This document shows, piece by piece, positions 51,085-64,000 of a stretch of 64,000 bases of DNA (position 1 is its first letter; each line of letters starts with the position of its first letter). Under the pieces are notes generated by a model. That model worked only from the letters and a program-made list of their open reading frames with translations. It was not told the DNA's origin and did not search any database. Position numbers and translations under genes: made by a program. The stretch comes from Burkholderia metallica (GTDB lineage: Bacteria > Pseudomonadota > Gammaproteobacteria > Burkholderiales > Burkholderiaceae). Where the stretch lies: NCBI RefSeq assembly GCF_902832845.1, contig NZ_CADFDB010000001.1:1612001-1676000 (forward strand). The letters are read 5' to 3'.

Positions 51085-52209
51085 TCAGGTTGCGTGCGAC
51101 GCGAGTTGCGGGTTGGGGCCGGGTGCGGGAAACGCCTCGCACACGCCGAGCGCGATATCGATCAGGCGGTCGTCGATTGACGGCAACACCGTCGTCCAGC
51201 CAAGGCGCGGCGCGGGATCGCGACGTTCGACGCCGACGGTCGGGAGCGGAACGAACCGTGTCGACACGCTCATCCGCAAATGCACGTCGGCCTTGGTGCC
51301 GACATACAGCCGGATGAATGCCATCACCTCCCGATGCAGCCATGCGCCCGGCAACAAATCCTGAGCCTGTTGCGCATCGGCCGGTCGCACCGTCAAACAC
51401 ACGGCCCGGCTGCGATACGCAAGACGCCTGCCGAGCACATAGCCGCCACCGAGCCCGTGGCGCTGCCCGTCCGACAGCGCTTCCGCATCCGGCTTCGCCG
51501 ACGTCAACGGCGTCGGTCGGCCGGTGTTCGTCGTTACGGCCCAGAACTCGTCGACACGAACATCGGCCCCCGGCGCCGCAAGCGCCACCACGCCGGCCAG
51601 CCCTTCGGACGTACGCGTGCGCTGGATCAACAACCCCAGCAACGCCAGCATCCGCGAATCCGGCAAGCCCGCCCGCGACGGCTTGTCACCCCAGCCGAAT
51701 CCCGCCAGACACAGCAGGCTCTGCGAATAATCGTCGATACCGCCGGCCCGAAAGCGCTCCGCGTAGCGGTATTTCTTCCATGCGCGATACAGCAGCGTTG
51801 CCGCGCGGTGATTGAACGGATCGAGAAACGCCTCGACCGCCTGATGTCCCTCTTCCCGCAACGCGATCTCGTCGATCGTGTGCGACGGCATGGCCGCATC
51901 GACACCGTAGAGCCCCATGAAAGTCGTACGCACGGTCGGAGGTGCATCCATGTGCTCGTCGTCGAATTCGACAGCGGCCACCTCGGCCGCCGGAAACCCC
52001 AACCGCGGACGCGGCCGGAACCGCACCGGCTCGTGCTCCGGCGTGTCGCGCGTGCCGAGCCCGGGACGTTCGGGCGCACATGCCTCCAGCAGACGGCAGA
52101 ACTGCATGAAAGTCATCTTCGGTGCGCGTTCGAACAGTCTTGCGGCCACGGGCGGCAGGCCGTTTGACACGGTGATTTCGTTACTCGCCCGACCGATCGA
52201 CGCGCTCAT
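51085..52209 (-). CDS. tssG: TssG, T6SS baseplate protein
   Basis: A 374-residue baseplate component. Recognisable parts are APKMTFMQFCRLLEACAPE near the start, RFRPRPRLGFPAAEVAAVEF, FMGLYGVDAAMPSHTIDEIA and FLDPFNHRAATLLYRAWKKY, the conserved TssG core. TssG joins TssF, TssE and TssK in the wedge of the baseplate in the cytoplasm. The ATG at 52209 overlaps the tssF stop by 4 bp (ATGA), so the long upstream extension of the frame is rejected. Confidence 0.92.
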   Translation of the reverse strand: MSASIGRASNEITVSNGLPPVAARLFERAPKMTFMQFCRLLEACAPERPGLGTRDTPEHEPVRFRPRPRLGFPAAEVAAVEFDDEHMDAPPTVRTTFMGLYGVDAAMPSHTIDEIALREEGHQAVEAFLDPFNHRAATLLYRAWKKYRYAERFRAGGIDDYSQSLLCLAGFGWGDKPSRAGLPDSRMLALLGLLIQRTRTSEGLAGVVALAAPGADVRVDEFWAVTTNTGRPTPLTSAKPDAEALSDGQRHGLGGGYVLGRRLAYRSRAVCLTVRPADAQQAQDLLPGAWLHREVMAFIRLYVGTKADVHLRMSVSTRFVPLPTVGVERRDPAPRLGWTTVLPSIDDRLIDIALGVCEAFPAPGPNPQLASHAT

Positions 52210-54020
52210 AGCGGTGCCCGCTGTGCCTTGCTGCGCGACCATTCCGTCCGCGACCGGGACGGCAGGCTGACGATCGCCAGCTTCGTGAACAGATTGATTT
52301 CCGCATACGCACCGAAGAATCGGTGCAGCAGTTCGCCGAACAGCATCACGTCGCCTTCACCGGAGAACGCATGGGTATCGAGCGTGACCTCGATCAGCAC
52401 GCCGCGCTCGACCGCCCCGCCCGACACCTCCTCGATCATTTCCTGCGATACATGCAGGATGCCGGCAAGCCGACGCCGGTTCAGTTCCTCGTTCGTCCAG
52501 TCGTACAGCGCCAACGCGCCGCGCAGCACTTCCGCATTCATCATCGACAGGAAGTTCGGCGCGAGATGCGAGAGCACGCGCCACTGGAAGCGATCTTCCG
52601 TCGGCGGATACAGCGGCAACGTCGGCGAGACGAGATTGCGTACACCCGCGACGTTCGGCGTGCTGGCCGCGAGTTCGTCGAGGCTCGCTTCGCGCAAGCC
52701 CTTGCGCGGCAGCAGCCCGTTCGTGCCCGTCACGCGCAGCGACAGGCTTTCCTCGGGAAGCGTATCCATCGTTTCCCACGCATGACCGCCGAGAATCACC
52801 CACATTTCGTGCAGCCCCGACACGCCCGAGCGCACACGTGTGTGGAAATAGCGTTCCGGCGCTTCGTGCCGCAGCATGCCGCCGCGGTGCCGGAACGTCG
52901 CAAACGGCACGTATTCGTATCGCTCGGCCGTATCGTGGTCGAACGTCGCGATCGCATCGACCGAATACGTTTCGACATGCTCGCCCTGATGACCGGCCGG
53001 CACCACGCGATATTCGGTTTCGTGATGGTCGATCTCGATCGGCTCGGCATCCAGTTCGAACAGGTTGATCACCGGCGAACAGAACAGTCGAACGTTATCG
53101 ACGTTGAACCGCTGATCCGACGGGTAAGCTGCCTTCAAAACGATCTCGAGTTCGAAGCGGGTCGATTTCTCGGGCAGCTTCGTGACCTCCAGTCCACACA
53201 AATCGACGAACAGGAATTTTTCGCGGAACGTGAAGTATTCGAGCAGCAGCTGATATCCGGAAAACGCCGCATCGGCTTTGGGCCACAGCCGCTCTTCCGT
53301 CGAAAATCCCGCCGGCTCGATCGTGACGCCCGGGAGCGGCACGGATTCGCCATCGCGTATTTCCGGAACGCGCCAATGAATCGAATCGACCTGGCGCGTC
53401 AACGCGAGATGCATCGCGAAAGCGGTCGGCAGATCGGCGTTCAGGTGCAGCCTCAGCCGCGACAGATCCGTCTCCTTGCGCAGCGCCGATCCTTGCAACG
53501 CGAAGCCGACGCGAATCACCGAGCGGCCGTCGTGACGCACGGCCGGCCCGGCATGCGTGATCGAGATCGGCTGCAGCGCGACAGCCTGCGTCGTCCGATA
53601 CAGACATTGCACCGTCCGCGGCGCGACGCCTTCCGCGCCGCTCGGGGAAGGCACGTTGATCGGCGCGGAACGCACCGGCACGCCGGCCGGCACGACTACC
53701 GTTTTCTGCAGTGTCTCGGCGACTGGCGTCAGCTCAACGATCGACAGCGACGGAATCATCCGCAGATAGTGCGGCCACAACAGGCTGACGAGCCCTTCGG
53801 TGAGTTCGGGCAACTCGTCGTCGAGTTTTTGGCGAAGCCTGCCGGTCAGGAACGCAAAACCTTCGAACAGACGTTCGACGTACGGATCGCGATCGCCGAC
53901 ACGGTCGAGATTGAGCAGGCGCGCACGGTCGGGATGCGCCTTCGCGAATTCCTTGCCGGATTCACGCAGGTAGCGCATTTCCGCTTCGTAGTAGCGCAGG
54001 ATGGGATCGTTTTTGTCCAT
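52206..54020 (-). CDS. tssF: TssF, T6SS baseplate protein
   Basis: A 604-residue baseplate wedge protein. Characteristic stretches are LRYYEAEMRYLRESGKEFAK, PYVERLFEGFAFLTGRLRQK, ELTEGLVSLLWPHYLRMIPS and the C-terminal LFGELLHRFFGAYAEINLF. It forms a heterotrimer with TssG. It lies 9 bp after tssA and is coupled to tssG by a 4-bp overlap. Confidence 0.94.
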   Translation of the reverse strand: MDKNDPILRYYEAEMRYLRESGKEFAKAHPDRARLLNLDRVGDRDPYVERLFEGFAFLTGRLRQKLDDELPELTEGLVSLLWPHYLRMIPSLSIVELTPVAETLQKTVVVPAGVPVRSAPINVPSPSGAEGVAPRTVQCLYRTTQAVALQPISITHAGPAVRHDGRSVIRVGFALQGSALRKETDLSRLRLHLNADLPTAFAMHLALTRQVDSIHWRVPEIRDGESVPLPGVTIEPAGFSTEERLWPKADAAFSGYQLLLEYFTFREKFLFVDLCGLEVTKLPEKSTRFELEIVLKAAYPSDQRFNVDNVRLFCSPVINLFELDAEPIEIDHHETEYRVVPAGHQGEHVETYSVDAIATFDHDTAERYEYVPFATFRHRGGMLRHEAPERYFHTRVRSGVSGLHEMWVILGGHAWETMDTLPEESLSLRVTGTNGLLPRKGLREASLDELAASTPNVAGVRNLVSPTLPLYPPTEDRFQWRVLSHLAPNFLSMMNAEVLRGALALYDWTNEELNRRRLAGILHVSQEMIEEVSGGAVERGVLIEVTLDTHAFSGEGDVMLFGELLHRFFGAYAEINLFTKLAIVSLPSRSRTEWSRSKAQRAPL

Positions 54021-54029
54021 GAGAATCCG

Positions 54030-55613
54030 TTACGACAAAGTCAATGCGCGGGCGGGATCGAGCACGGTTAGCTCGGCCTGCAGTTCTGCGATGCGTCGCA
54101 CGAGTGCCGGCTTGTCGGCATCCTTGCGGTTGCTCATCGCCTTCAGTGCTTTCATCAGTTGCTGCTTGACATCGAACGTCAGCGCCGGCTCCCAGCGCAT
54201 CAGCGGCAGCGACCGGGTGGACGCGTCGAGTTCGGCCAGCAGCGCGAACGATGTATCGGGCCGGCCGGCATGATCGGCCAGACGCGCCATCACGAACCGC
54301 TGCAAGTAGCGATGGCGATCGGTCTTCATCCCCGGCAGCGTTTCGAGCCATGCGAAGGCCGTCTCGATGCCTTCGCGCGCGGCCAGTTCACGGGCCTGGG
54401 TTTCGATCTCCGGCCAGTCGCCGGCGGCGTCGCTTTCGCTATCGGCGGAAACGGGCAACGGCGCGACCGTCTCGCCCGCCTCCAAATCGCGCACGACCGC
54501 GTAGCGCGCAATCCATTCGAGTGTCGTGTCGTCGGCGAACGGCGTGCCGTCGCTGAATGTCAGGCGCTCGATGCCCGGCAGTCGTTCGAGAAACAGCGCG
54601 AAGTCGGCGCGCAGCAGTTCGCGCCACGCGCTGTACGGCATGCCGACGTGATCGAGCGCGACATGCTGGAAGTACTGCAGATCGAACCACAGGTGATTCA
54701 CGCCTTCCATGAACGCGCCTTCCACGCGCTCGAGCAGTTCGTGCCAGTGCTTCTGCAGCACGAGACGCTTCATCTGCTGGCGCAATTCGGCACGTGGCGG
54801 TGCCAGACGCGTGTGCGATGCGGTATCCGACGGCGGCACGTCGTGCAACGTGTCCCAGCGAACGCTGCGCACGACGCGTACCGACGGCAAGTAGCCGTTT
54901 TCCCGCTCCCGCAACCACGCCGCCATCGAACGTGCCTGATCGAGCAGGTCGCGCGTCGACGCGATCGCCCCGTTCGACACGGGAACCGGCGCAGTCCTTT
55001 GCGGCGGGATCGCGCCCGGATTCGCACCGCGAGCCAGTTCCTCCTTGCGCTCGAAACGGGCAACCAGCGGCTGCAGATTCGGGCGTGCGGCTTCGGGCCA
55101 GTTTCCTGTCTGTTCGACGAGCACGTCGAGCGCAGCAAGCGCACGTTCGAGATCGGCTGTCGCAAAGTCGCCGCGGCTATCCAGCGTGTCGATCATGCGC
55201 GAAGTCGCCAGCATTTCCAGCGCCGCCCGCTTCGCCTCGGCCCGCGCGGGCAGCACGGCCTCGCCGAACCGGTCGACCAGCGAAGCCGCCAGTTCGAGTC
55301 CATCGGCAAAGCCGGCCGGTCCGCCCTGCCGCAACCTCGCAAACGTGTAGTAGCCGACCACACGCAGATCCTTCCCGGTTTCCTTGAGCAGCTGTTCGCA
55401 GGTACGGACGATCAAGCCGTCGTCGATTCCAGACAGCTTGTTCGCTTCGTCCTTCAATTCGAAGAACGCATCCTCGTAGCCTGGATCGCGGCCGCACGCG
55501 TGTTCGCCCGGTATCGGGGCCAGCCATGCCGCCCAGGTGGCCTGCCGGGATGCCTGCAGCGAGTCGACGCGAGCACCGCCGACGAGTGTCTTTACGAAAT
55601 TGGCGAGCGTCAT
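54030..55613 (-). CDS. tssA: TssA, T6SS assembly cap protein
   Basis: A 527-residue TssA of the VasJ-like long type. The N-terminal ImpA domain is recognisable (DPGYEDAFFELKDEANKLSG, WLAPIPGEHACGRD, LLKETGKDLRVVGYYTFARL). The middle and C-terminal parts are helical (HLWFDLQYFQHVALDHVG, FALFLERLPGIERLTF). TssA guides sheath-tube polymerisation from the baseplate. It overlaps the tssM stop by 4 bp (ATGA) and precedes tssF by 9 bp. Confidence 0.9.
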   Translation of the reverse strand: MTLANFVKTLVGGARVDSLQASRQATWAAWLAPIPGEHACGRDPGYEDAFFELKDEANKLSGIDDGLIVRTCEQLLKETGKDLRVVGYYTFARLRQGGPAGFADGLELAASLVDRFGEAVLPARAEAKRAALEMLATSRMIDTLDSRGDFATADLERALAALDVLVEQTGNWPEAARPNLQPLVARFERKEELARGANPGAIPPQRTAPVPVSNGAIASTRDLLDQARSMAAWLRERENGYLPSVRVVRSVRWDTLHDVPPSDTASHTRLAPPRAELRQQMKRLVLQKHWHELLERVEGAFMEGVNHLWFDLQYFQHVALDHVGMPYSAWRELLRADFALFLERLPGIERLTFSDGTPFADDTTLEWIARYAVVRDLEAGETVAPLPVSADSESDAAGDWPEIETQARELAAREGIETAFAWLETLPGMKTDRHRYLQRFVMARLADHAGRPDTSFALLAELDASTRSLPLMRWEPALTFDVKQQLMKALKAMSNRKDADKPALVRRIAELQAELTVLDPARALTLS

Positions 55614-58600
55614 CGCAGGTCCCGGAACGCAAATGCGTCGCCCAGCAAACGGAGGGCGTGTCCGAACGGTTTGGTGGGGGCATCGGAAGATGCCGAAGTC
55701 GTCGCCAGCGAAGACACCGCCATCCGCAGATCGCGCTTTGGCGGCTTCTCGCCGGGCGTGCTCGGTCGCGCCTCCGTGATCGCGCTCGTCTGACGGGGTG
55801 CCTGCCTGGCATCCGCCGGCGTCGCTTCATCCGGCCACGTCATCGCAGCCGGCAGCCCCGGCGGCAACGGCACGGCGGCGTGCCTGGCCGCGGCAATCGC
55901 CGCGGCCGGCAACGGCGGCGGACTGGCCGTCGACACCTTCGGCCCGGCGCTCGCCGCCCCGGTCATGAAAATTCGTGCAGGCAGCACGAAGTTGCGCAAC
56001 TGGAGAACGTCGAGCGGGCCCGCGCCCGCGTCGCTGCGCAGTTGCACCTTCAGCGGGATGCCCTGGCTGGTGTCCGGGGTCCAGGTCAGCAGGTAGCGTG
56101 CGTTGTCCTGTTGCGTGACCTTCGCGCGCTCGAACAGGCGAATCAGTCCGAATCGCCCCTGCGAATCGAGCGCCGTCCGCAAGCCGCCCTGCTCCGTCTG
56201 CCATTCGATATGCGACAGGTTTTCGAGCGACTGGCCGGGCCATTCGAACGGCGTCCATTCCTGTTTCTGGTTGAAGTAGTGCAATTCGCGCCCGGACAAC
56301 ACGAAGCGCATGTCGGTGACGCCCGGCGTCGGCACCGCCTGCAACTCATAGCGCACGCGTGCATCGCCGGACGGGAACAGCACAGTCGAAATGCGCGTGA
56401 GTTTGTTCAATCCGCTCAGGAAACCCGGATCGATCGTCAGCGCACCGGAATCGGTGCCCTGTGCGGGCACCCAGCGGTCGCCCTGCCGTTCGATGACACC
56501 GGCGAGCTGCGTCGTCACGAATTGCGTGATCACGCCGTTATCCGGCCGCATGAAGCGCGCCATCTCCGGTAGCGACGCATCGTTGTCCGAATCCGCGAAC
56601 GGATAGCGGCCGCCGAACGACTTGTTCCAGTCGGCCACGATCGCCGTGCGCCAGATCTCGTTCAGGCTCGACGCGGCCGGCTGCACGATGACCTGCCACG
56701 CCTGATCGAACGGCGCGCGGAACAGTGCGCCGAAGCCGGACCACTGCTCACCGAGGCTCGCGGCGACACGGCTCGCATAGTCGCGGCTGTCGGCGATGTC
56801 GGAGGTCTTGCCTTGCAGTACCGACTGGGCAGCCAGTCGGGCAACCGCGTCCGGATTGGCGCTGGCGACGATCTGCGACGTCTTCAGGCGCATGGCCGTG
56901 ATGCGCTCCAGATAGCGGGCGAGGCTCAGGTCGCCGGTTGCAGCCATTTGCGCGGCGGCGGTTTTGCCGTTGGCCGGCTCACCGGAGAGGAGATCGCTGC
57001 CGGTCAGGCGCAGGATCGGCCCGAACGCCGCGGCCAGCGGCGCGAGCGGCGGCTTGACCTGCTTCGACGGATCCTTTTCGTCGCCGCCGACGAGTTGCTG
57101 CGCCTTGCTGATCAGCGTGTCGGACAGCGACTGAGTATTGGCTCCCGTTCCCGCCTGATAGACGATCGCGTTCATCAGCGCGACGAGCGGCGAGCGTTGC
57201 GGATCACCCAGCAAGGTTAATTGATCGGCCGTGGCGGAAAGCGTCGGCGCCGGTTGCCAGCGCACGCTGTTGAGGAATTGTGCCCAGGCGCGCGCATAGT
57301 CGTCGAAATAGCGTTGGCGCAGTTCGTCCTTTAATGTCGACGAGGACTGGCCAGCGGCCTTGGTATCGGAAAGCACCCAGTCGCTCGACACGTCGTGTTG
57401 CTCGCCGGCTTCGTCGATGGCCTTGGCGATCCGTTCGTCCCATGCTGCGCGCGTGAATACGCCCGGTATGGTCATGGTCGTGTTGAACAAGCCGCGGCTT
57501 GTCGCGCCGCTTGTACCGGCCTGGGATGCTGCGTCACCCAGCAGCGTGGCGAGCGATACCGGCGGGTACTTCGGTGTCGCTTCGTCGAGGATCTGCTGGT
57601 AGACCGCGTCCCGGGAATTCTGAATGCCCCGAACGCCGATCACCGTCTGGCGCGTCGCTGCGATCAACGTACTGTCCGGTGCGATTGCCAACGCAGCCGA
57701 CGCCGACTTCGCGCCGGGCCCCAGATGGTTCGTGAAGAATGTAATGGCTTGCTGCCGCAAGTCCTCCCATCTGCCCGGGGACAACGATGAATTGACGGGG
57801 CGCGCGGGCATGGACGTCGCGACGAGCTGCGGTGCCAGGAATGCAGCCACCGCGCGCTCCGGTTTCGCGAGCATCAGATAGGTTTTGAGCGTGTCGTATG
57901 CGGCCTGCACCTGGGTATCGCCGCTGTTGGCGATTTCTGCATCGGAGAGCGATGCCAGTTGATGCAGTCGGGACTCGAGTTTCTCGCGGATGGGGGCGAC
58001 GAGAATGCGGTTTGCCGCATCGGCATAGTGCGGCCAGAGGGCATCGAGCAATGCGTGGTCGCGATTCAGGCCGAAGCGGGCACTCAGCGGTGCGCGGGTG
58101 CGCTGGTGAGTTTCAAGCGTGTCGATCTGTCGTTCAAGATGGGTAAGTGTCTGTAGGGACCGTGTCGGGTCCCGAGCTTCCTTAAGATTCACGACCGTAT
58201 CTGCCGCATTTCCTATCGTTGCGCGGTTGACGAAGCCGGACAGCATCGTGCCGGCAATCCAGAGGCCGATCACGGCGATCGCCATCCACGCTGCGGCGGT
58301 CGACGGCGAAAAGCCGACGCGGCGGCCGTGGACGTTGCGGCTGTGGTCGGCGATGGTTTGCCAGAGGGTTCGGTGTTGGTGACTGTGCGACGGATCGCTC
58401 CCCTTCGAATCGCCATCCACCAAATCGAATTCCGGAGACATCAATGCGCGATCTTTGAATAGGGGCGCAAACATCAACCCGTGAAGCGTATGTCTCGAAA
58501 TAGCGGATTCAGCCGTTCGATGCAGCAGGTCGGATAGCGCTCCGTGCAACCTTGAAACATGCTGCGCCAGTTCGGCAGGGTAACGATCATCGGCATTCGC

Positions 58601-59401
58601 AGCCAAGCGCGCGACACCCGTGTCCGAGAGGTGGTCGACGAGATTTCGCAGCGATTCGTCAATCGTCGCCTCGCTCACGTGCGTGTTCGTCCACGTGAAG
58701 CCCATCGCTTCGTCCGGACTGGCACGTTTGCTCCCAAAGTCCGTAACATCCAGCAGATAGGCCGGCGCGGCCCAACGCAACGTGCGTGCAAAGCGAGCAA
58801 GCTGTGAGGCGAGTCCATCCACGTCGAACGCTGCATCGCCAGCACTTCGTTGACGGGTGATGGCCACAATCGCATCGATCGGACGGCGGCGGCGCAGGCG
58901 ACGAATCCGATCGAGCCATTCCGTATCGAGTTTGTCGTCAATTTTCCTCGCATACAGCATGACCGTATTGCCACGCATCGCGTAGCCGGAATCGGCCAAG
59001 CCCGGCGCGAGCCGCCGGACGAGCGGATAGTCGCCGACGACCAGCACCCAGCGATCGCAATAACGCCATCGCCAGCCGTGCCGCTCCCTCAGGACCTGCG
59101 TAAGCAAGTCGGCACGAGTCGCAACATTGACCGTCGGACCGCTTCCCGACGGAGCAGGCGTGTGACGAGCGCGATCATTGACCCACTTCTTCACGGCACG
59201 CCAGCCGTTTGCCGGCCGAGACGAGTCACTGAAGCTGAAAATCAACAGGATTGCCACGAAGATGGCGCACAAAATGACGAGCGCCACTCCTCGATCCGCT
59301 TCGGCCACCCCCATCCAGTGCGGTCGCCTCCATACGATCAGCCCTGGAAGAACGACAACGGCAAGAGCCCCGAACAAGTCAAGTTTGAAAATCCGGTTCA
59401 T
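55610..59401 (-). CDS. tssM: TssM (IcmF-like), T6SS inner-membrane protein lacking a Walker A motif
   Basis: A 1263-residue membrane-complex protein. Membrane segments are near residues 8-24, 39-58 (VALVILCAIFVAILLIFSF) and 368-391 (AAAWMAIAVIGLWIAGTMLS); the large remainder is periplasmic and carries the C-terminal TssJ-binding part (GRFGLIRLFERAKV, YLLTWTPD). At the place where TssM proteins usually have a GxxGxGK(S/T) loop, residues 117-133 read RWVLVVGDYPLVRRLAP, with no Walker A lysine. So ATP binding is unlikely in this protein. It overlaps the upstream 433-residue gene by 23 bp and tssA by 4 bp. Confidence 0.9.
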   Translation of the reverse strand: MNRIFKLDLFGALAVVVLPGLIVWRRPHWMGVAEADRGVALVILCAIFVAILLIFSFSDSSRPANGWRAVKKWVNDRARHTPAPSGSGPTVNVATRADLLTQVLRERHGWRWRYCDRWVLVVGDYPLVRRLAPGLADSGYAMRGNTVMLYARKIDDKLDTEWLDRIRRLRRRRPIDAIVAITRQRSAGDAAFDVDGLASQLARFARTLRWAAPAYLLDVTDFGSKRASPDEAMGFTWTNTHVSEATIDESLRNLVDHLSDTGVARLAANADDRYPAELAQHVSRLHGALSDLLHRTAESAISRHTLHGLMFAPLFKDRALMSPEFDLVDGDSKGSDPSHSHQHRTLWQTIADHSRNVHGRRVGFSPSTAAAWMAIAVIGLWIAGTMLSGFVNRATIGNAADTVVNLKEARDPTRSLQTLTHLERQIDTLETHQRTRAPLSARFGLNRDHALLDALWPHYADAANRILVAPIREKLESRLHQLASLSDAEIANSGDTQVQAAYDTLKTYLMLAKPERAVAAFLAPQLVATSMPARPVNSSLSPGRWEDLRQQAITFFTNHLGPGAKSASAALAIAPDSTLIAATRQTVIGVRGIQNSRDAVYQQILDEATPKYPPVSLATLLGDAASQAGTSGATSRGLFNTTMTIPGVFTRAAWDERIAKAIDEAGEQHDVSSDWVLSDTKAAGQSSSTLKDELRQRYFDDYARAWAQFLNSVRWQPAPTLSATADQLTLLGDPQRSPLVALMNAIVYQAGTGANTQSLSDTLISKAQQLVGGDEKDPSKQVKPPLAPLAAAFGPILRLTGSDLLSGEPANGKTAAAQMAATGDLSLARYLERITAMRLKTSQIVASANPDAVARLAAQSVLQGKTSDIADSRDYASRVAASLGEQWSGFGALFRAPFDQAWQVIVQPAASSLNEIWRTAIVADWNKSFGGRYPFADSDNDASLPEMARFMRPDNGVITQFVTTQLAGVIERQGDRWVPAQGTDSGALTIDPGFLSGLNKLTRISTVLFPSGDARVRYELQAVPTPGVTDMRFVLSGRELHYFNQKQEWTPFEWPGQSLENLSHIEWQTEQGGLRTALDSQGRFGLIRLFERAKVTQQDNARYLLTWTPDTSQGIPLKVQLRSDAGAGPLDVLQLRNFVLPARIFMTGAASAGPKVSTASPPPLPAAAIAAARHAAVPLPPGLPAAMTWPDEATPADARQAPRQTSAITEARPSTPGEKPPKRDLRMAVSSLATTSASSDAPTKPFGHALRLLGDAFAFRDLR

Positions 59402-60680
59402 TCGGAAGTGCGTGTGTTGTTGATGCGTTATTCAGGTTCTTCACGACAGCGATCAGCACATGGCATTCGTCGCGCTGTGCGATCACCTGCGGCTTTGGCG
59501 ATTGACAAGCCATATACGTTGCGCAAGCTGCCGCAAGCCATCCTGCCGAGACTCCCGCGTTGCCGACGATTCGATCGAGGTCAAACTCCGGAACCACTCC
59601 GTCTTTCTTTCCTTCCGGACTGTCCGCTCTCAGTGCCGTGCGCAGGAAGCCTGCCGCTGCACTATCAAGCCCAGTCATCCACAGCGCTCCGACATCGTTC
59701 GGCGCCGCATCGCCCCACTGAAGCCCATAGGTCAGCGCGTGGCCGGGATCGTCATGGCCGGCTCGCCGCGGACGATGGAATGCAGCGATCGGCCGCAATT
59801 CGAAACGCGACGCAAGGACATCGGAAATCAGCAACAATCCGACCGCGGCCTCAGCCGATCCGGGCGCGGGTTGCTCAGCAATCGCTTTGTTGAGCCCCAC
59901 GGATACGAGCAAGACCGCATGCTGATGCAACGACCCATTCCGATCGTCAAGCCAGGCATCGAGCGCCATCAGGTCGAGCGGTTCTGCCGCACGGTCCGTT
60001 CTCGCGAAGCGCAACTCGTGGCGCCTCCATTCCGCCCGCCACAGCTCGACCACGTCGTGGCCTCCGACATAGCCGGAAATATCGAGCAAGACGCGTAGCG
60101 GCAGATAAGCAGGGAGCGCATCAAGGGTTTTCTTCAGGTCGTTCAGCAGTCGCTCGTACAGCCATCCGAGGACCTCTACATGACGCTCCGGATCGTCAGC
60201 GGCCAGGCAAGCTTCGATCGGCTCGAACCATCTTGCTGAAACCGATTCGTTTTCGTTCTGCTCCGAAGCCTTGGCGCTTAGCTTCAGCGTTCCATCGACG
60301 ATCTGTTCGATGCCATTTTCCGTATCGTCAGCCGTTACACGGGCAGCCGCTGCAAGAACCAGCATTGGCACGCTCTCGCGCGCAAAAGCCTGCGTTTTGT
60401 ACTTTCTGGTCGCATCGTTCCAGGCTTGAACTTTCGCGCATTCGAGTCCGTGCGCCCGATAGCGCCGAGACACCACGAAGGCGGAAAAAACCGTCGGATA
60501 GACGGTGACGCATATCCAGAACCACGGCGTATAAGTCGGTTCGCCCTCCGGCCAGAGCATCAACACCACCAATACGCCAGCCACTGTCAGCACAATGAAC
60601 ACGGCAGCCCAGAGAATTCGCGACGGCGATTCATCAGGGACCGGCTTCTCAGGCGGAAGGGACGAGAAATCCAGTGCCAT
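59379..60680 (-). CDS. T6SS-associated membrane protein of unknown function
   Basis: A 433-residue protein that I cannot assign to a named Tss family. Two membrane segments are near residues 23-43 (LWAAVFIVLTVAGVLVVLML) and 53-70 (WFWICVTVYPTVFSAFVV). The rest is a cytoplasmic or periplasmic helical domain with FTP-free sequence such as DLMALDAWLDDRNGSLHQHA and VGLLLISDVLASRFELRPI. It lies between the PAAR gene (3 bp after its stop) and tssM (23-bp overlap), so it is part of the T6SS operon. A role in membrane-complex assembly or effector handling is possible but unproven. Confidence 0.75.
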   Translation of the reverse strand: MALDFSSLPPEKPVPDESPSRILWAAVFIVLTVAGVLVVLMLWPEGEPTYTPWFWICVTVYPTVFSAFVVSRRYRAHGLECAKVQAWNDATRKYKTQAFARESVPMLVLAAAARVTADDTENGIEQIVDGTLKLSAKASEQNENESVSARWFEPIEACLAADDPERHVEVLGWLYERLLNDLKKTLDALPAYLPLRVLLDISGYVGGHDVVELWRAEWRRHELRFARTDRAAEPLDLMALDAWLDDRNGSLHQHAVLLVSVGLNKAIAEQPAPGSAEAAVGLLLISDVLASRFELRPIAAFHRPRRAGHDDPGHALTYGLQWGDAAPNDVGALWMTGLDSAAAGFLRTALRADSPEGKKDGVVPEFDLDRIVGNAGVSAGWLAAACATYMACQSPKPQVIAQRDECHVLIAVVKNLNNASTTHALPNEPDFQT

Positions 60681-60683
60681 CGA

Positions 60684-60941
60684 TTAACGGCGCCCGCTAT
60701 TCGGAAGAGACGAAATCAAACGGCACCCGCACTCGCACAAATCATCGTGTTGAGCGACTTCCAGACCGTCATCGAACGCACCCGACGTTGCCGTCGCGAT
60801 ACGGTTGTCGCCGTGTTGCGGGCAAGTAACGGGATCGTGAAGTCGAGCAAGCGGACGACCCATGAAGAAACGCGTATTCGAGCCGGCCGTTACATGGCCA
60901 CCGCCGGTATGGCTGTCTCCGACGCGCACGATGCCCGCCAT
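60684..60941 (-). CDS. PAAR-domain spike-tip protein
   Basis: An 85-residue PAAR protein. The repeated glycine/histidine pattern is visible: GIVRVGDSHTGGGHVTAGS, then GRPLARLHDPVTCPQHGDNR. The Cys/His residues near CPQHGD and CECGC are candidate zinc ligands that close the tip. It has no effector extension, so it serves as a separate spike tip on VgrG. The start at 60941 follows a GGGGGT site. It lies between the DUF2235 gene and the 433-residue membrane protein gene. Confidence 0.9.
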   Translation of the reverse strand: MAGIVRVGDSHTGGGHVTAGSNTRFFMGRPLARLHDPVTCPQHGDNRIATATSGAFDDGLEVAQHDDLCECGCRLISSLPNSGRR

Positions 60942-61005
60942 ATGTACCCCCGAAATAAACTGGAATCGCCACTGCAATTCGACAGTGAACGAAATTGATA
61001 TTGGG

Positions 61006-63255
61006 TTATAAGCGCCCCGGCAACCGGGCAGCTGGCTTCATCGCCTCGCTGACCTGCCTGACGCGCTCACCGTGCTGTTCTTCGCGCTTGCGCGTCTTGT
61101 CCTCGTCGACGTAATCGCTGGCGCCGAAGGTGTCGATAGCACGTGTCTGGAAATACAGATTCGACGACAGCACATGGTCGTGCCAGCTCGTCAGCATCGT
61201 GTCGTGAACCAGCAAGTCGAATAGCGCCATGACTTTGGGCGGCAGCGGGTTCTTGCCGCTCAGGCCCATCTTCCACGCCTGGATCAGCGCTTCCTGTTCC
61301 GGCGTCATCATCCACGCCTCGATCATCGAAGCGCTGAACTCCGGGTCCGCGTCCCACGGCAATGAACCGTCCTGAGCCATTTCGCGCACAAGATCTGCCG
61401 ATTTTTGCAGTCCCGCTTGCCGGGATTCGCGTTGCATCAGTTCTTCCGATTCGCTTTGGATGCGGTCCCAGACGCCTACGGAGGGGCGCTTTTGCTCGAT
61501 ACCTGCATCGCGACCGGCGTTCATTTCCGGCAACACCGCGTTGTGCCAGCGCGCATAGGCCCTGCCAAGCGTCTCTCGATCCGCAGCCGGCCGCTGATTG
61601 CGCAGCGCGAGATACGCTGCCTCTGCATCGTTGCGTTCCTTCAGAAGTACCCGATGCCGGGCGGCGAGGTCATCGAAGCCGCTCGTCACAGTTGCGCGAA
61701 ATGCCGGCGACTGGTAGCGAACTGCCATCCAGCGCAGGAAAACCTGCATGTGTTCAAGAAAATTCAGACGTGCGACGTAAGGGACTATCTGTCGATAGGC
61801 GTCGATCAGTTCTCCGATTTTGTAGGTGGATTTTCCGTCGGAGATGGGTTTTGCCAGGGTAAATTTCGTGAACGTTTCACCCTTGAACTTGAATAGATCT
61901 TCCATCGTATCGAGCACGACACCATGCGAAACCGCTTCGTTAAGCATGTCACGCAAAACGACTCGCTGCAGTTCCGCACGTGCTCCAAGCGTTCCAGGCG
62001 GTGCGCCACCGGTGATGTCTTCGCTAGTCCCAGGATAGAGGTACTGAAGTCCGCGCGTGTTCTCGAGACTATCGAGCCGCTGATAGAAGCGCAGTTCATG
62101 TGCCGCAGCAAAATGCACGCATCGCTGCACCGATGCCGGGACCGCGAGGTCGCGATCCCCGTAGTTCTGTTTGAGCAGGCCAAGGATCGGCACGATCCCG
62201 AGCAGTTTGTTTTCTTCCATCACCGACGACACGGCGTCCAGCAGCCCCAGGAACTTGATTTCGATCGGAATAGCCGTTTGGTTGGGATCTTTCGGATCTG
62301 TATAAGCCAACTTCGTATCGCTCGGGCGCTTGTACTTTTGAGCCAACTCGTTCGCCAGCGCCCGAGCAATAACACAACCCCGATCTGCACCGAAAATGGA
62401 TATCTGAATCCGCTGGACTTTCGGCATTTTCTGCTTGACGTCGTCGATTGATTTTTCAAACTGCGTCATCGCGGCCGCCATCCGATCCTCGACACCTGTT
62501 CCAAATACGCGCGCAACGGCTCGGTTGTCACGAAACCATGGAATCGAATCGATCGCCACGCCAAAGAATACCGATTTAGCGGCACTTTGGGCGATTGACG
62601 GTAAATTCTTCTTCGCGTCGTAAAGAATCGCGCGCGTAGCGGCGCGACCGCGTCGAACCCAGCGGTTGTCACGCTGCAGTTGCAGCACGCGGCCGATATT
62701 GCGCGGCGCGGATTCGACTGAATCGACCAGATCTTTGAAAGACTGCACGACTGGACGAAACGAGAATTCCTTGAGGCCCTTCTTGAATCCTTCTGTAATA
62801 GTATCTTTTGGATTGGTGGGAAGCCGTTTCAAGCCGGTTACGCTCTCGCCGACGTTAACTCCGATCGAAGCTGCCGCTTCGGCTCCTTGCTTTCCGAGCT
62901 TAAATATCGCAGAGACGACTTGCCCCTCTCTCGCCTCCTTGTTCAACTCTGTCCCGAGACCAGAATAGTAGAGCGGATACCAAAATTGGTTAGACCCCTG
63001 CTCCCGACGCGGGTCGTCATTATCACGATGGGCCTCCCAGAGCCGACAGATGTTCGAGTAACGGGAAGTATGCTTTGCATCGTGATCCCGATGGCGACCA
63101 AACCCATCAAAGAAAAATCCGATATGTATCACCGCTCCACATGGAATACATCGGTCATGCGGATACGCTTTCTGATTTTCTCCGATTGCAGCACGCACAT
63201 TCGCCGGAGTTCGATCGTCCGGTCCGACAGCGGCTTTGTTGATCTTATTGCCCAC
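61006..63255 (-). CDS. DUF2235-domain T6SS protein, nucleophile serine replaced by Asp
   Basis: A 749-residue protein with the DUF2235 alpha/beta-hydrolase core at about 40-420: VIHIGFFFDGFGRHRDHD (Asp50), IEIKFLGLLDAVSSVME and CVHFAAAHELRFYQRL keep the usual order. DUF2235 proteins include Tle1-type T6SS phospholipases with a GFSRG nucleophile motif; here the equivalent, residues 289-293, reads GADRG, so Asp stands for Ser. About 330 further C-terminal residues are helical and unassigned. The GTG start at 63255 follows GAGGTG and overlaps the lipoprotein gene by 11 bp. It is an effector candidate or an inactive relative. Confidence 0.82.
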   Translation of the reverse strand: MGNKINKAAVGPDDRTPANVRAAIGENQKAYPHDRCIPCGAVIHIGFFFDGFGRHRDHDAKHTSRYSNICRLWEAHRDNDDPRREQGSNQFWYPLYYSGLGTELNKEAREGQVVSAIFKLGKQGAEAAASIGVNVGESVTGLKRLPTNPKDTITEGFKKGLKEFSFRPVVQSFKDLVDSVESAPRNIGRVLQLQRDNRWVRRGRAATRAILYDAKKNLPSIAQSAAKSVFFGVAIDSIPWFRDNRAVARVFGTGVEDRMAAAMTQFEKSIDDVKQKMPKVQRIQISIFGADRGCVIARALANELAQKYKRPSDTKLAYTDPKDPNQTAIPIEIKFLGLLDAVSSVMEENKLLGIVPILGLLKQNYGDRDLAVPASVQRCVHFAAAHELRFYQRLDSLENTRGLQYLYPGTSEDITGGAPPGTLGARAELQRVVLRDMLNEAVSHGVVLDTMEDLFKFKGETFTKFTLAKPISDGKSTYKIGELIDAYRQIVPYVARLNFLEHMQVFLRWMAVRYQSPAFRATVTSGFDDLAARHRVLLKERNDAEAAYLALRNQRPAADRETLGRAYARWHNAVLPEMNAGRDAGIEQKRPSVGVWDRIQSESEELMQRESRQAGLQKSADLVREMAQDGSLPWDADPEFSASMIEAWMMTPEQEALIQAWKMGLSGKNPLPPKVMALFDLLVHDTMLTSWHDHVLSSNLYFQTRAIDTFGASDYVDEDKTRKREEQHGERVRQVSEAMKPAARLPGRL

Positions 63256-64000
63256 CTGTTACACCTCGTTCAAATCGATTGCTTTTAATTTCGTGAACAA
63301 CAGTCTCCTGCAGACGCTGCATTGCAGCACCGAACGCACCAGGCTTACCCTTCGTCTCCAGCAATATTTTCTGAACGACTGGATGCTGATCGAACTTAGG
63401 ATTGACGAGCTCTGCGTAGTAAACATACTGCTCTAGATCAGCAGTATCGGTTAGGCGATATTTAGTCCACCCTTGTGCCGCAACACGTGCTGTCCGTCTG
63501 AACGCGAGGGCCATATCTACGTCATCAACGCCGGCTGCTTTTCCGTATTTTGTTTGAAGCCAGTGATTGACTTTCGCATACGATATCCTTGCTCCGCTCA
63601 TGTCGTTCCGAATCTCAAATTCGATGTGATCGTCCGGGTAAAAGTGCACCGCGAGTATGTCCTCTCCCGCCCCACCATTGACCTTTGTATGCGGAAATTT
63701 GACCTCCGACCTCTTTTGGATCTTCTTGATGGGCGCATACGGATCTTTCATGAATTCGTCCTGGTCGTATACCTCCCACTCAACCGTGAAGTCTGTTCCT
63801 TTCAGCTTGTAGCAGCAACTCAACCGTCCCGCACCAGCGCCCGGCGGCAAATCTCCCCCACCGCTTGCTCTATTGCCATATCTGTCACGAATCGTGAACT
63901 CGCTCAGATTGAACGGTGTGTAATTGAGTCCCATGACGCTGACTCCGCGGTAGGTCGGTTCGGATGAAAACGCGTCGCAACCGGCTAACGTCGATACGAC
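63245..64000 (-). CDS. DUF3304-like lipoprotein, 5' end beyond the window (partial)
   Basis: At least 251 codons are present; the frame stays open to the right edge. The first ATG in view is at 63934, but reading on upstream in frame gives VVSTLAGCDAFSSEPTYRG, a lipobox (LAGC) and the start of a mature lipoprotein, so the real start is outside the window. The following part, LNYTPFNLSEFTIRDRYGNR, then LSCCYKLKGTDFTVEWEVYD, matches the DUF3304 pattern. DUF3304 lipoproteins often sit beside DUF2235 T6SS proteins; a periplasmic immunity role is inferred. It overlaps the DUF2235 gene by 11 bp. Confidence 0.8.
   Translation of the reverse strand, partial: VVSTLAGCDAFSSEPTYRGVSVMGLNYTPFNLSEFTIRDRYGNRASGGGDLPPGAGAGRLSCCYKLKGTDFTVEWEVYDQDEFMKDPYAPIKKIQKRSEVKFPHTKVNGGAGEDILAVHFYPDDHIEFEIRNDMSGARISYAKVNHWLQTKYGKAAGVDDVDMALAFRRTARVAAQGWTKYRLTDTADLEQYVYYAELVNPKFDQHPVVQKILLETKGKPGAFGAAMQRLQETVVHEIKSNRFERGVTGGQ

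Follow-up and report, generated by a model that had tools for sequence, protein, structure and literature searches.

The 64,000-nucleotide stretch of Burkholderia metallica DNA analysed here (the window) encodes, on its minus strand, a 749-amino acid (aa) Tle1-like effector of the type VI secretion system (T6SS) in which two residues of the Ser-Asp-His catalytic triad are replaced. Our verdict, drawn from sequence comparisons, is that this protein belongs to an 'Asp class' of Tle1 that has a single origin and cannot use the Tle1 mechanism, yet remains under selection and accompanied by immunity genes. Judged by its residues, the window protein, as a member of this class, is not an Asp-His hydrolase of the dehalogenase/epoxide hydrolase type. 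Loci (L) and genomes (G) are cited below by our own numbers.

The former catalytic site of the window protein

The features of the effector gene are as follows.

61006..63255, minus strand: open reading frame (ORF) of the Asp-class Tle1-like T6SS effector, 749 aa, whose GTG start codon falls within the DUF3304 gene's 3' end
62377..62391, minus strand: GADRG (residues 289-293), the nucleophile elbow, with D291 replacing Ser (from the sequence, the TleB alignment and the AlphaFold2 model)
62236..62238, minus strand: D340, the kept triad acid, in GLLDAVSS (from the alignment)
62023..62025, minus strand: S411, replacing the catalytic His, in YPGTSED (from the alignment)
63097..63114, minus strand: FFDGFG (residues 48-53) against the canonical FFDGT, a stretch that we take to be the oxyanion-hole region; T52 is changed to Phe and D50 retained (from the alignment)
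61009..61710, minus strand: C-terminal region (residues 516-749) with the VHDT motif (683-686) (from the alignment)

An earlier sequence-only reading had assigned the protein to the DUF2235/Tle1-like family, and the Pfam profile PF09994 (Tle1-like catalytic domain, DUF2235) agreed, matching at 37 bits against a cut-off of 27; no PHROGs or NCBIfam profile matched the effector. Asp does replace the catalytic Ser, as that reading had said: the coding strand reads GGT GCA GAT CGG GGT, or GADRG, from residue 289, with the D291 codon at 62383-62385. To place these residues, the protein was aligned by phmmer with TleB of Xanthomonas oryzae (PDB 9j3f). D291 aligned with the Ser of GFSRG, D340 with the Asp of DTVAS and S411 with the His of YPGVHSD; by our own count of a chain offset of 36, these are TleB Ser240, Asp280 and His347. 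The TleB report (PMC12421835) gives the same three residues as the catalytic triad and states that S240A and H347A each abolish lecithin hydrolysis. The loss of the catalytic His (S411 for His347) had been missed by the sequence-only reading. TleB thus has Ser240-Asp280-His347 and phospholipase A1 and A2 activity, whereas the window protein has Asp-Asp-Ser. Tle1 of Pseudomonas aeruginosa (PDB 4o5p) needs its Ser-Asp-His triad for toxicity, according to PMC13133936, and VgrG-spike-bound Tle1 (PDB 6sjl/6ski) has the GFSRG and PGAHSD motifs, unlike the window protein. Of the Tle1 phospholipase features, the window protein therefore keeps the alpha/beta-hydrolase fold and the catalytic Asp and lacks both the GxSxG serine and the catalytic His. 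On the residues, Ser-type phospholipase action is excluded, and we infer that a conventional ester-hydrolysing site could not be built from those that are left.

Structure prediction bears on the strand-nucleophile elbow, which the sequence-only reading had proposed to check. A first AlphaFold2 model, built from 11 sequences, was weak (predicted local distance difference test score, pLDDT, of 55). A second model, of residues 30-515, was built from 28 sequences and had a mean pLDDT of 64, with core strands at 72-95 and poor regions at 119-252, 343-367, 395-400 and 491-515. In this model residue 290 ends a strand, D291 forms the turn and residue 292 opens a helix, in a block with pLDDT 88-95. 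D340 follows the next core strand, in a block that is itself poor (pLDDT 47), and S411 follows the last strand (block pLDDT 78).

The C-terminus is long, as had been noted, but it is not wholly unassigned. A VHD(S/T) motif (VHDT here, window 61198-61209) is common to Ser-class and Asp-class T6SS Tle1 proteins and matches the VHDS of canonical Tle1 effectors; its H684 is present in 50 of the 50 Asp rows of our alignment that have a letter there.

Relatives, tree and selection

To determine how widely Asp occupies this position, 102 related ORFs were aligned, most of them recruited through similarity to the window protein or its clade. The column of D291 holds Asp in 55 rows, Ser in 46 and a gap in one, with no other state, so that Asp at this site, which the sequence-only reading had proposed to examine in relatives, is shared by many of them and more than a chance event. 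An oddity of a single genome was rejected on the same 55 rows. In these rows the His column holds Ser (40), Gln (13), Ala (1) or a gap (1), that is, no His among 54 letters, and the acid column holds Asp in 55/55. The triad accordingly reads Ser-Asp-His in 45 rows, Asp-Asp-Ser in 40, Asp-Asp-Gln in 13, and Asp-Asp-Ala and Asp-Asp-gap in one each. Two rows are incomplete: L110 covers only part of the protein, and in one Ser row the acid column is a gap and the His column holds Ser. None of the 102 combines Asp in the nucleophile column with His. Because rows were grouped by their residue in column 291, Asp in every Asp row holds by definition; the real finding is the absence of any residue but Asp and Ser in this column, together with the agreement of both with the tree and with the His column. 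Some rows repeat one gene, cut off at different edges of the locus (e.g. L043/L098 and L051/L097), and the dereplicated counts of 30 Asp and 25 Ser rows are the safer ones.

Other columns follow the same division. Those fixed in at least 90% of Ser rows and changed in Asp rows include T52, F290, S291, T341, H411, S412, G415 and Y418, and those fixed in Asp rows only include R242, D243, T253, D291 and P356, with residue 391 being Y or W in 30/30 dereplicated rows and in 54/55 of all Asp rows. D50, D340, D413, H381, E387 and R389 are kept in both. In total, 28 columns are invariant over the 30 dereplicated Asp rows. A Ser nucleophile elsewhere in the fold, which the sequence-only reading had named as a result that would count against it, was looked for and rejected, since none of the 26 Ser of residues 36-515 is invariant in these 30 rows.

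Asp-class proteins fall into five motif-based subgroups: A, which includes the window protein (20 rows), B (15), C (9), D (4) and E (7). The closest named matches of the effector gene were in Burkholderia species and Pandoraea terrae. Searches with the window protein matched 48/65 genomes of the genus at E <= 1e-3, 27 of them with hits at 4.2e-28 or better that were all Asp-type groups or pieces; two more (G032 and G053) carry group D. The same search matched 33/299 genomes of the family at 1e-20 and, in a wider sample of the class, 1/369, which was the source genome itself. A profile of 11 Asp-type rows matched 15/398 genomes of the phylum at 1e-12 (locus L124 of this set is the same place as L076): five with Asp group E, from two other families of the class, nine with Ser-type proteins, and the source genome. 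Members of the Asp clade were thus found in three families of the class, Burkholderiaceae among them. The source genome (7.55 Mb) encodes two Asp proteins, that of the window and a second one (C12), and one Ser-type protein (C6). An ordinary Pfam search covered 281 genomes of the class (E <= 1e-10); its best 30 loci, with states read by alignment, had Ser and His in 30/30 and Asp (29) or Glu (1) as the acid; this sample is no census of Asp-class genes and is blind to them, because the Asp proteins of the source genome score only 3e-5 and 3e-4. A group E gene had no match in Escherichia coli genomes, and plasmid searches gave few close relatives. Two single-sequence scans of viral contigs found no relative, and alignment scans gave 5, 1 and 23 loci. 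A phage origin was rejected because 50,697 phage records yielded no match.

In an IQ-TREE tree of the 55 dereplicated rows, all 30 Asp rows lie on one side of a branch (support 100/98; 200/200 bootstrap trees), and Asp and Ser split the tree in one change, with no Ser on the Asp side. The grouping was rejected as an artefact of the motif columns: with these and one very long row removed, the Asp branch was unchanged (100/99). When 13 Ser/His DUF2235 proteins from the 30 loci of the Pfam search were added as an outgroup, the Asp rows were nested among Ser-type T6SS rows, again with 100/99 for the Asp branch; the inner Ser branches were less well supported, and the trees flag long branches. The simplest reading of these trees is that Ser-His-Asp would be ancestral and was altered once. 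The sequence-only reading had also named Asp throughout a known inactive clade as a result against it. Asp does run throughout the clade, but our searches of the open-access literature found no report of this clade, whether active or inactive. In that literature, represented mostly by titles and the starts of abstracts and without subscription papers or preprints, we found no description of Tle1-like effectors without the Ser/His pair.

Intact Asp-class copies are under purifying selection. The ratio of nonsynonymous to synonymous substitution rates (dN/dS; NG86) was 0.097-0.108 over five pairwise comparisons, a range that also holds for the window gene against four intact orthologs, with an overall dS that was high for L007 and L008 (1.5 and 2.0). 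It was 0.06-0.08 for residues 236-515 and looser, 0.12-0.16, for the C-terminus. For residues 1-130, where three close pairs were covered, it was 0.067-0.076, as low as or below that of residues 236-515. For intact copies, these values and the retained immunity genes speak against a gene that is merely dead and decaying. Rearrangements were seen at two loci. At L105:9668-11247, two insertion-element-like ORFs of 167 and 359 aa split an Asp-class effector gene near residue 655, and another reverse ORF breaks the TssM region nearby. At L104:2820-3119, a truncated effector piece is flanked by two DUF3304 genes, which suggests a collapsed tandem duplication of an immunity-effector unit.

Delivery and immunity genes

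The genes around the effector, all on the minus strand, run in the order DUF3304, 749-aa effector, PAAR, 433-aa protein, TssM, TssA, TssF and TssG.

63245..64000, minus strand: DUF3304 immunity-type lipoprotein with the lipobox LAGC followed by D, extending beyond the window (Pfam 22.1 against a cut-off of 22, marginal)
60684..60977, minus strand: PAAR tip protein (PF05488, 79.6 bits)
59379..60680, minus strand: 433-aa protein between PAAR and TssM, with no Pfam family above cut-off
55610..59401, minus strand: TssM (IcmF) (Pfam)
54030..55613, minus strand: TssA (Pfam)
52206..54020, minus strand: TssF (Pfam)
51085..52242, minus strand: TssG (Pfam)

A T6SS spike gene, PAAR, therefore stands beside the effector gene, together with TssM, TssA, TssF and TssG. 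PAAR is also beside the group A gene in L103, L104, L105, L107 and L108, and in these five loci the 433-aa protein (59379-60680 in the window) again lies between PAAR and TssM. In the 23 Asp loci searched by phmmer, VgrG-like ORFs were found in 19 (the exceptions being L106, L109, L111 and L112) and DUF4123-like adaptor ORFs in 13; Pfam added adaptors in L168 and L172, and L167, L169, L170 and L171 have an ORF of DUF4123-like size, compared by size alone, at the adaptor position.

The neighbouring DUF3304 (Tli1) gene named by the sequence-only reading is indeed present, with the marginal Pfam score given above, and its product scored 19.1 against the 110 required by NCBIfam Tli1a. The GTG start of the effector lies within the 3' end of this gene, with GAGG, read by eye, 8 bases upstream. 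A second, partial DUF3304-like ORF lies upstream of it, before the contig end. The guanine-cytosine (GC) content falls from 0.60-0.68 across the TssA/TssM genes to about 0.52 over the effector start and immunity gene (within 60000-64000), as if the history of this pair differed from that of the T6SS core genes.

Immunity-type genes were then counted in 26 Asp loci, using references drawn partly from those same loci; the Asp motif was read in 24 of them, and L107 and L111, which lack that part, were assigned from the remainder. DUF3304-type ORFs were present in 24/26; in L105 and L107, the only loci with none, the effector gene is broken. At least two such ORFs or pieces were found in 19/26, a count of 20 from which L103 was removed, the weak extra matches in L103, L104 and L173 being DUF4123 genes. 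Among the immunity proteins, those of L167, L168, L172 and L099 score above the DUF3304 Pfam cut-off. Tandem DUF3304-type arrays precede Asp-class effectors at L108:5847-9071 (four ORFs), L109:11080-15903 (eight ORFs or pieces), L094:6018-9054 (three) and L167:9664-11307 (three). The antidotes seem to face the periplasm, because group A immunity proteins have a lipobox and those of group E a hydrophobic N-terminal stretch; a lipobox regular expression matched 14/30 proteins, and some of its group B matches appear to be a signal-peptide Cys and not a true lipobox.

Candidate modes of action

The explanation that we consider most likely, with a confidence just short of even, is that Asp-class proteins are T6SS cargo effectors that would do harm without ester hydrolysis and would be directed at the membrane, by binding or inserting. 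The Ser-His-Asp site would have been dismantled in a co-ordinated way, with Ser changed to Asp, His to Ser, Gln or Ala, FFDGT to FFDGF or another hydrophobic residue, and DTVAS to D(A/C). The effector would travel on the PAAR/VgrG spike into a rival's periplasm, where a membrane-anchored DUF3304 protein would neutralise it. Harm would come without Ser-type phospholipid hydrolysis, through membrane binding or insertion by the Tle1-type C-terminal part and the remodelled pocket, and D291 and D340 would be a fixed ligand-binding or structural carboxylate pair, not a nucleophile and an acid. The kept and multiplied immunity genes argue for continued toxicity. In an AlphaFold 3 model of Tle1-Tli1a, described in PMC13133936, the DUF3304 protein binds outside the catalytic pocket and possibly acts on membrane insertion. 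This placement suggests that immunity need not require an active esterase, and it is why we favour a non-hydrolytic membrane toxin.

Several points weigh against a non-hydrolytic membrane toxin. We know of no precedent for a Tle1 that harms without catalysis, and found no toxicity, secretion or membrane-binding data on Asp-class members. The invariance of D291, D340, D50 and D413 exceeds what a non-catalytic pocket would require. The retained immunity genes could instead guard against the active Tle1 of other strains. Several Asp-class copies are broken, by a two-ORF insertion (L105), split frames (L106 and L109) or a missing 5' part (L107), with G034:C2 and G055:C1 as further examples. The DUF3304 assignment is weak for several loci: L108 and L094 are below the Pfam cut-off, the immunity-type proteins of L169 and group C (L096 and L098) give no Pfam family, and a genus-wide Pfam search at E <= 1e-3 found no DUF3304 in the source genome. 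In a set of seven immunity-type proteins beyond that of the window, three scored above the Pfam cut-off, two below it and two matched no family. The two effector reports state that the N-terminal DUF2235 domain of TleB is toxic on its own (PMC12421835) and that P. aeruginosa Tle1 needs its triad to be toxic in E. coli (PMC13133936).

A new chemistry, the leading alternative, is possible, if rather doubtful: D291 and D340, to which D50 and D413 might be added, may make up a carboxylate-pair or metal-binding active site within the former pocket, without Ser or His, whose substrate would be lipid head groups, peptidoglycan or something else in the periplasm. We keep this possibility at that level because five Asp, including both old triad positions, are unbroken: D50, D243, D291, D340 and D413 are the only invariant ones among the 30 Asp of residues 36-515. 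R242, T253 and P356, invariant in the 30 dereplicated Asp rows and not in Ser rows, the Y/W at position 391, the low dN/dS of residues 236-515 and the retained and multiplied immunity genes point the same way. The low dN/dS is, however, not specific to the core, residues 1-130 being lower still in the three close pairs, and an Asp that opens the elbow helix can be purely a structural helix cap. To our knowledge, no alpha/beta hydrolase has a carboxylate pair and no His. A classification paper describes the His as totally conserved (PMC11878206). In its fullest form, which we put forward tentatively, the esterase pocket of Tle1 would have become an invariant Asp-pair active site (D291-D340, with D50/D413 and perhaps R242/D243 and Y391) with a chemistry that would be without precedent in the alpha/beta-hydrolase fold, would serve against competing bacteria and would still be neutralised by DUF3304 proteins.

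It is unlikely that toxicity was lost and the protein kept as a spike-loaded building block or in another non-killing role. Effectors are reportedly treated in one review as T6SS building blocks, and the group A gene stands just before PAAR, the 433-aa protein and TssM in the window and the five loci named above. This place is not fixed, however. L106, L109 and L111 (group A or remnants) have no TssM nearby, L103, L104 and L108 resemble ordinary effector modules in carrying VgrG- and DUF4123-like ORFs upstream, and most B, C, D and E members are in separate vgrG operons (L173 is beside TssM). Tandem immunity genes would be of no obvious use to a structural part, and in L105 and L107 the copy next to T6SS genes is broken.

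Haloalkane dehalogenases and epoxide hydrolases have an Asp at the nucleophile elbow, as does the window protein, and the sequence-only reading had drawn the analogy. In these enzymes, side chains from the cap domain hold the halide or epoxide, and haloalkane dehalogenases keep a His base. Epoxide hydrolases keep theirs too (D-D/E-H, PMC11878206), but in the Asp class the His after the last core strand is gone (0/54), and the invariant H381 and H684 also occur in Ser-type Tle1 rows, so that no replacement appears to have been gained with Asp; an Asp-nucleophile hydrolase of this type is largely refuted and highly improbable. Decay into a pseudo-effector without function is just as improbable in spite of the broken copies, since dN/dS near 0.10 refutes it for intact ones, 28 columns are invariant and members of the clade occur in three families of the class.

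Family members can receive a phospholipase label from the domain name alone, and the PF09994 matches of B. cenocepacia are tabulated as phospholipases in PMC6612558. For the Asp class, this label may be wrong for a whole branch that retains its delivery and immunity genes. The class makes it testable whether a Tle1-fold effector can harm cells without the esterase triad, and raises the second question of whether DUF3304 immunity may act on a membrane-binding step instead of on catalysis.
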